Shown here one piece after another: positions 19,373-61,806 of a stretch of DNA of 64,000 bases. Positions within the stretch are counted from its first letter, which is position 1, and each line of letters begins with the position of its first letter. The position numbers and the translations under genes were made by a program. The DNA is taken from the NCBI GenBank assembly GCA_012515445.1, contig JAAYYI010000004.1:1-64000 (forward strand), written 5' to 3'. The notes beneath the pieces were generated by a model. It did not search any database. It had not been told where the DNA came from and saw only the letters and a list, made by a program, of their open reading frames with translations. Source of the DNA: Candidatus Bathyarchaeota archaeon. GTDB lineage: Archaea; Thermoproteota; Bathyarchaeia; Bathyarchaeales; Bathycorpusculaceae.

Positions 19373-19500
19373 TGCTTGTAGAATAGCCCACAACCAACAA
19401 GCAACCCTAGCGATATGCTGATAACAAAACAGTTGTTTCTGCCAACTTCGTTGGTAGAAGAAGAGCAAGGGGGCTGCTGCCTTCTTCTTCTAATTTGAAA
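19373..19500 (-). repeat. copy C (inverted) of ~130-nt dispersed hairpin-bearing repeat
   Basis: Reverse complement shares AAATTAGAAGAAGAAGG, GCAGAAACAAC, TTGGTTGTGG and TCTACAAGCA with copy B in the same order. Confidence 0.75.
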
Positions 19501-19519
19501 ATTTCTGGTCAGTTGAGAC

Positions 19520-24391: not shown

Positions 24392-24492
24392 AGTTTAAGC
24401 GGTGCCGCTATATTTCGTTTTTCCAGAAACACATCCAAAACCCAGTTGTCCGTAAACCATTAAACTGGATAAACTGGTTATATTGTGGTTTA

Positions 24493-24620
24493 TTTTTTAA
24501 ATCAGTAGAAGAAGAGAGTATGGCCCTGCTACTTCATCTTCTCTAACTTTTTGCAAAATATTGCTTTTTTAAATCTGCAGTTGGGAAGTGTTGCTTTTTG
24601 GTTGTGGCGTCAATACAAGT
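24493..24620 (+). repeat. copy A of ~130-nt dispersed hairpin-bearing repeat
   Basis: Shares GCCCTGCTACTTCATCTTC, TAACTTTTTGCA and TTGGTTGTGGCGTC with copy B in the same order. Confidence 0.8.
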
Positions 24621-24851
24621 TTGGTTTAAACGGCAACATAGAGGGTTTACGTTGCTCTCTGCAGACCCCCTCCCCTTATATAAAGCAGCCGAAAACCGAG
24701 AGTTTGTCAAGGCGCAAATCCCATCAGTACATTTAACCCGTCTATCTGAAGGTTTACTCAAAATGATTAATAAGAAAGTCTTCAGTTTTCAAGGAAGCCA
24801 AAGTGCATACTAACACATCTCTTAGGAACTAGAAAGGGGAGAATTAGCGAA

Positions 24852-61636: not shown

Positions 61637-61680
61637 ACTTTCCTTTTTCCTATACCAGTCGAAGTAGTCTGATTTTTTAT

Positions 61681-61806
61681 TTTAAATTAGAAGAAGAAGG
61701 AAGTGCCGCCCTGCTACTTCATCTTCCATAACTTTTTGCAGAAACAACCGTTTTTAGTTCAGCGTCTGGAATGCGTTGCAGATTGGTTGTGGCGTCTCTA
61801 CAAGCA
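61681..61806 (+). repeat. copy B of ~130-nt dispersed hairpin-bearing repeat
   Basis: Matches copies A and C in ordered blocks. Confidence 0.8.

Follow-up and report, generated by a model that had tools for sequence, protein, structure and literature searches.

A high-copy family of short repeats in Bathyarchaeia, probably MITEs mobilised by an ISH3-type transposase

Three short intergenic repeats in the genome of a Candidatus Bathyarchaeota archaeon, here called copies A, B and C, can with good confidence be placed in a family of about 100 MITEs, which would have been mobilised by a distinct element that has the same ends and encodes an ISH3-type transposase, and would have lost their own ends later. 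They lie in the window, by which we mean the whole 64,000-nucleotide stretch of DNA that was analysed. The terminal inverted repeats (TIRs) of the full-length members, the 4-bp duplications beside them and the transposase element with the same ends together lead us to regard the family as a set of MITEs. Several observations stand against this explanation: no transposase was found in the host, many copies have no ends, the core is better conserved than the ends, and the ISH3 match of the transposase lies below the curated cut-off.

Copies in the window and in related genomes

Copy A (24489..24621, + strand) matches the profile of the family with an E-value of 2.3e-29 and lies upstream of a DegT-type aminotransferase gene. 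Copy B (61674..61806, + strand), flanked by a Trm112-like gene and a Gfo/Idh/MocA oxidoreductase gene, gives the best profile match (3.6e-34) and is near the consensus of the host-genome family. Copy C (19373..19503, - strand) has the most divergent core of the three (4.4e-20) and sits between the genes of a TrmB-type regulator and a PQQ/PMT-domain protein. The first-pass annotation had described a three-copy repeat outside genes with ordered blocks shared between the copies. All of the blocks are present at the positions it gave, the alignment holds from end to end, and all three copies are intergenic, beside ordinary genes. What all three lack are recognisable terminal inverted repeats, which were sought in each of them; the ends of copy A are at noise level, with 5 and 6 mismatches of 13, and those of copy B have 6 and 6. 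A and B are MITE-family cores without recognisable ends. A GACCCCCTCCCCTTATATAA-like stretch at 24659-24690 of the window recurs before or after several copies (L032, L039, L157, L167 and L170) and could be a promoter motif or belong to a further dispersed repeat.

The number three is true of the window but is a large undercount for the genome, and the similarity goes far past what chance would give. When copy A is used as the query at least 40 other places are found in the host, nearly all with E-values of 1e-14 to 1e-35, and queries with A or B give at least about 60 distinct copies in the host genome (2.44 Mb in 127 contigs). The wider search that had been proposed in the first-pass annotation, done with a sequence-only profile (R1), finds 101 host places at E≤0.01 as well as matches in sister species, all of these counts being taken from the searches and the retrieved stretches. 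At E≤1e-10 the profile has matches in nine genomes belonging to the genus, one of them the host. Its matches come to at least 22 places in each of G013, G018, G029 and G015 and to 19 in G024, and outside the genus there is one strong copy (1.4e-17) in G117, which belongs to another genus of the same family. The phage and plasmid collections that were searched gave no match to the family, and neither did an exact-pattern scan over the genome contigs. No known family had been recognised from the letters alone, and Rfam agrees: at the gathering score the window gives only a tRNA, and around copy B there is nothing at E≤1.

A tree of the copies places 57 of the 58 host copies in one group, and only 2 label changes are needed for the host copies in the tree of all 108. 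This clustering shows amplification within the host lineage. Positions common to different species are few. In the same tree the nearest neighbours of copy C come from other species, and a G029 copy follows the same gene as copy C does, with matching orientation, which suggests that copy C may be an old insertion. However, the aligned identity of these two is only 53%, so they could also have been inserted independently.

Some further features of the distribution were seen. At five places in the host (C58:18525-18826, C62:981-1272, C117:2058-2347, C13:25789-26080 and C56:28292-28547) two cores stand in tandem with a repeat length of about 160-176 nt, and G018 has a double element of 341 bp (L188) with two units within a single pair of ends. 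Four of 40 sister-species copies (L137, L140, L143 and L161) directly follow a tRNA gene and share its orientation, and L170 follows one as well, on the other strand. No bias was found in the orientation of copies relative to neighbouring genes, and a preference for the sense strand at the 3' ends of genes was tested and is absent.

Terminal repeats, target duplications and the transposase

The full-length members, which occur in the host and in sister species, are 171-197 bp long and have the inverted repeats CAGTAGATCAAAA/TTTTGATCTACTG around a core of about 130 nt, with a hairpin near the 5' end of the core. The core-bearing ones measure 171-185 bp in the sister species and 176-197 bp in the host, and some copies reach to the left end TAACAGTAGATCAAAA and the right end TTTTTTGATCTACTGTTA. 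The end sequence has 63 matches in the host compared to 7 for a reversed control. Many of these matches form inverted pairs with a spacing of about 180-190 bp, and many lie at contig ends, as would be expected if repeats break assembly. The window itself begins at the start of its contig, and a terminal repeat, AATTTTGATCTATTGTTA, at 257-274 within its first 274 positions probably marks the right end of a further element that has these ends and was cut by the contig break.

Exact direct repeats of 4 bp flank 17 of the 41 elements bounded by TIRs, where 7.1 are expected by permutation (p<0.0002), this set being a pool of all such elements, core-bearing or with other interiors, with two loci counted twice. 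Among the lengths from 2 to 8 that were tried, the excess is seen at four only. Target-site duplications, suggested in the first-pass annotation as something to look for at the boundaries, are thus found in the family. The same ends also bound unrelated interiors, namely M1 (L086-L089, about 180 bp) and M2 (L090-L092, about 420 bp, L091 being a shorter form) in the host and M3 (L189, about 273 bp) in G018. On host contig C8 a TIR pair spanning 1.8 kb was considered as a candidate for the autonomous element and rejected, its interior being ordinary genes.

An element that could serve as the autonomous partner was found in G018. It is 1,113 bp long (L176), has the terminal repeats of the family at both ends with TTAT/TTAT at its flanks, and encodes a protein of 347 aa with a match to DDE_Tnp_1 (1e-11). 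The best model for this protein is the ISH3 transposase (NCBIfam NF033541, 4e-51), and because its score of 173.8 bits is under the curated cut-off of 225 we call it ISH3-type and not ISH3. A partial and degraded homologue lies within a TIR pair in G012, and a search of the host assembly for a homologue found none. The ISH3-type transposase is the probable mobiliser of the family, which was probably moved in trans. In the proposed course of events the transposase, supplied by the separate element, would excise the units and insert them at TTAA/TTAT/ATAA-like sites with duplication of the four bases, and after insertion the copies would shed their ends. The homogeneity of the core might then be upheld by repeated bursts, by ectopic gene conversion or by selection on the hairpin. 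No empty insertion site was seen. The first-pass annotation had offered an ncRNA family or a MITE as candidates. The latter is supported at the level of the family by the TIRs, the 4-bp duplications and the ISH3-type element, while A, B and C themselves are without TIRs. As for the other properties of MITEs, the elements are short, they occur in about 100 copies, and they appear to be non-coding, their open frames being near the level of shuffled sequence.

The conserved core, its hairpin and the alternative readings

Most of the host copies have the core but no recognisable ends. With at most 3 mismatches in 13 allowed, the left end is present in 10 of 58 and the right end in 12 of 58, and most of the others are at noise level, so that the presence of ends is near all-or-nothing rather than graded. 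The copies without recognisable ends (43 of the 58 host copies examined) have a sharp-edged core with a mean identity of 83% to the consensus and a column variance 8.6 times the binomial, and they still show a trace of the inner part of the right end (8.14 matches vs 6.49±0.25). The copies with TIRs are spread over the tree, with 11 changes among 15 such copies, so the ends have apparently been lost repeatedly. Near-identical blocks amid differing flanks (L136/L137, L149/L153 and L152/L154/L150) point to recombination or gene conversion. A core that is better conserved than the ends is not what simple neutral decay would be expected to leave; a sharply bounded core without ends could come from selection, from gene conversion or from deletion of the ends.

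The hairpin near the 5' end of the core (stem I) has in copy B the arms GAAGA (61690..61694, + strand) and TCTTC (61722..61726, + strand), the latter position being one where the arm swaps across species. In copy C the arms TAGAAGAAGA (19483..19492, - strand) and TCTTCTTCTA (19455..19464, - strand) form a perfect 10-bp complement, 19492-19483 with 19464-19455, in line with the near-perfect stem that had been noticed there; copy B has an A-A mismatch in this stem. The first-pass annotation had taken the stem as a sign of structure conservation. This could not be inferred from the copies of this genome, which give no consensus fold and no more covariation than shuffles, but the arms do compensate across species. 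Within the host the search for structure gave little: RNAalifold found no consensus structure for 66 copies, covariation of the proposed stems in host copies is no greater than in shuffles, and the signals of all-pairs covariation scans are mostly local or non-Watson-Crick.

Between species, the two arms swap jointly (GAA/TTC, GTT/AAC and GAT/ATC). The host and G013 carry the pair GAAGA/TCTTC. G012 has GTAGATGAT/ATCATCTAC, which G024 matches nearly, and GTTGTTGTTG/CAACAACAAC occurs in both G018 and G012, with a similar arm pair in G015. Duplexes of the trimmed arms in non-host copies average -7.66 kcal/mol compared to -5.75±0.40 when permuted (0 of 20,000 permutations), a test that ignores the relatedness of copies, with arm swaps mostly between subfamilies, and that is somewhat biased, as the trimming was decided with the alignment in view and four of the copies were entered manually. 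The excess also holds without the host, G013 and G018 copies. Within single genomes p is 0.02 for G018 and 0.55 for the host, the arms do not match in a few copies (L179 and L185), and an earlier test, in which the windows were wide, gave no significant excess (p=0.58 over all copies and 0.11 for relatives). Given that the arms change together across species, the hairpin looks to be a real and conserved feature of the element, which may matter as RNA or as DNA.

Conservation of this kind could mean that the family is a structured RNA or cis-regulatory element, in which the core is transcribed, the hairpin is under selection and the MITE ends are an eroded vehicle (exaptation). The joint arm changes, the sharp bounds and identity of the end-less cores and the copies downstream of tRNA genes are all what such an element might show. 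Despite this we think it rather unlikely, given that the host copies have neither covariation nor a consensus fold, orientation shows no preference, Rfam has no match, few positions are shared between species, and the host copies group by species in the manner of bursts or concerted evolution. The conservation of the hairpin could also serve transposition. A genus-wide form of exaptation, where dozens of end-less cores per genome are selected as an RNA or DNA element containing the hairpin and descend from a MITE that an ISH3-type transposase had mobilised, is likewise given a low probability.

Much less probable is movement by an IS200/IS605 (Y1) transposase, with the repeat as a hairpin-ended element that inserts beside T-rich sites without target duplication. 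A hairpin near the 5' end, a T-rich left flank and the many host copies without recognisable terminal repeats would fit, and the host does have one IS200-type Y1 transposase gene (L200, C103:62901-63260). This gene, however, is flanked by unrelated GC-rich palindromes and shows no match to the core on either side, copy-rich G013 and G018 have no Y1 gene, and the full-length copies show terminal inverted repeats and 4-bp duplications; the idea was rejected, as no Y1 element with matching end hairpins turned up in the host, G013 or G018. That the repeats are remnants of a short coding sequence is extremely improbable and was dropped, for although a GAAGAAG tract differs in length by 3 nt and a frame stays open across several sister-species copies, the longest open stretches (43.5 and 39.5 codons) are little above those of shuffled sequence (37.8 and 38.3) and host copies have stops in these frames.

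Significance and comparison with known systems

With the MITE explanation the Bathyarchaeia, a large and almost uncultured group of archaea, gain a high-copy MITE family together with its probable mobiliser. The family also serves as a caution that dispersed hairpin repeats in archaea which look like ncRNA genes can be remnants of mobile elements. On the sharply kept core of the end-less copies one could test whether dispersed repeats have evolved in concert or been exapted. Given the terminal repeats at many contig ends, elements with these ends probably affect the assembly of these genomes. Within the part of the literature on mobile elements of Bathyarchaeia/Bathyarchaeota that was covered, at the level of titles and abstracts, we found no MITE family of this group. 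The family is new but of a type already known, and its odd feature is the core conserved better than its ends.

The ISH3-family insertion sequences (NF033541) come close in that the G018 element sharing the ends of the family encodes a DDE transposase for which ISH3 is the best model; the differences are that the protein scores under the cut-off and that the MITE shares terminal repeats alone with the element, the interiors being different. The nearest counterparts of the family itself are some Sulfolobus MITEs and the bacterial ERIC and Correia repeats. The bacterial ERIC and Correia repeats, which have tens to hundreds of mostly intergenic copies and can affect transcripts (PMC10969869), are by description a similar kind of repeat and occur in unrelated hosts. 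The Sulfolobus MITEs SM3A (164 bp) and SMN1 (320 bp), whose transposition relies on the ISC1058 and ISC1733 transposases (PMC3718332), are by description also short, non-autonomous archaeal elements that depend on the transposase of another insertion sequence, whereas the family described here has an ISH3-type transposase as its probable partner, more copies and a conserved internal hairpin.
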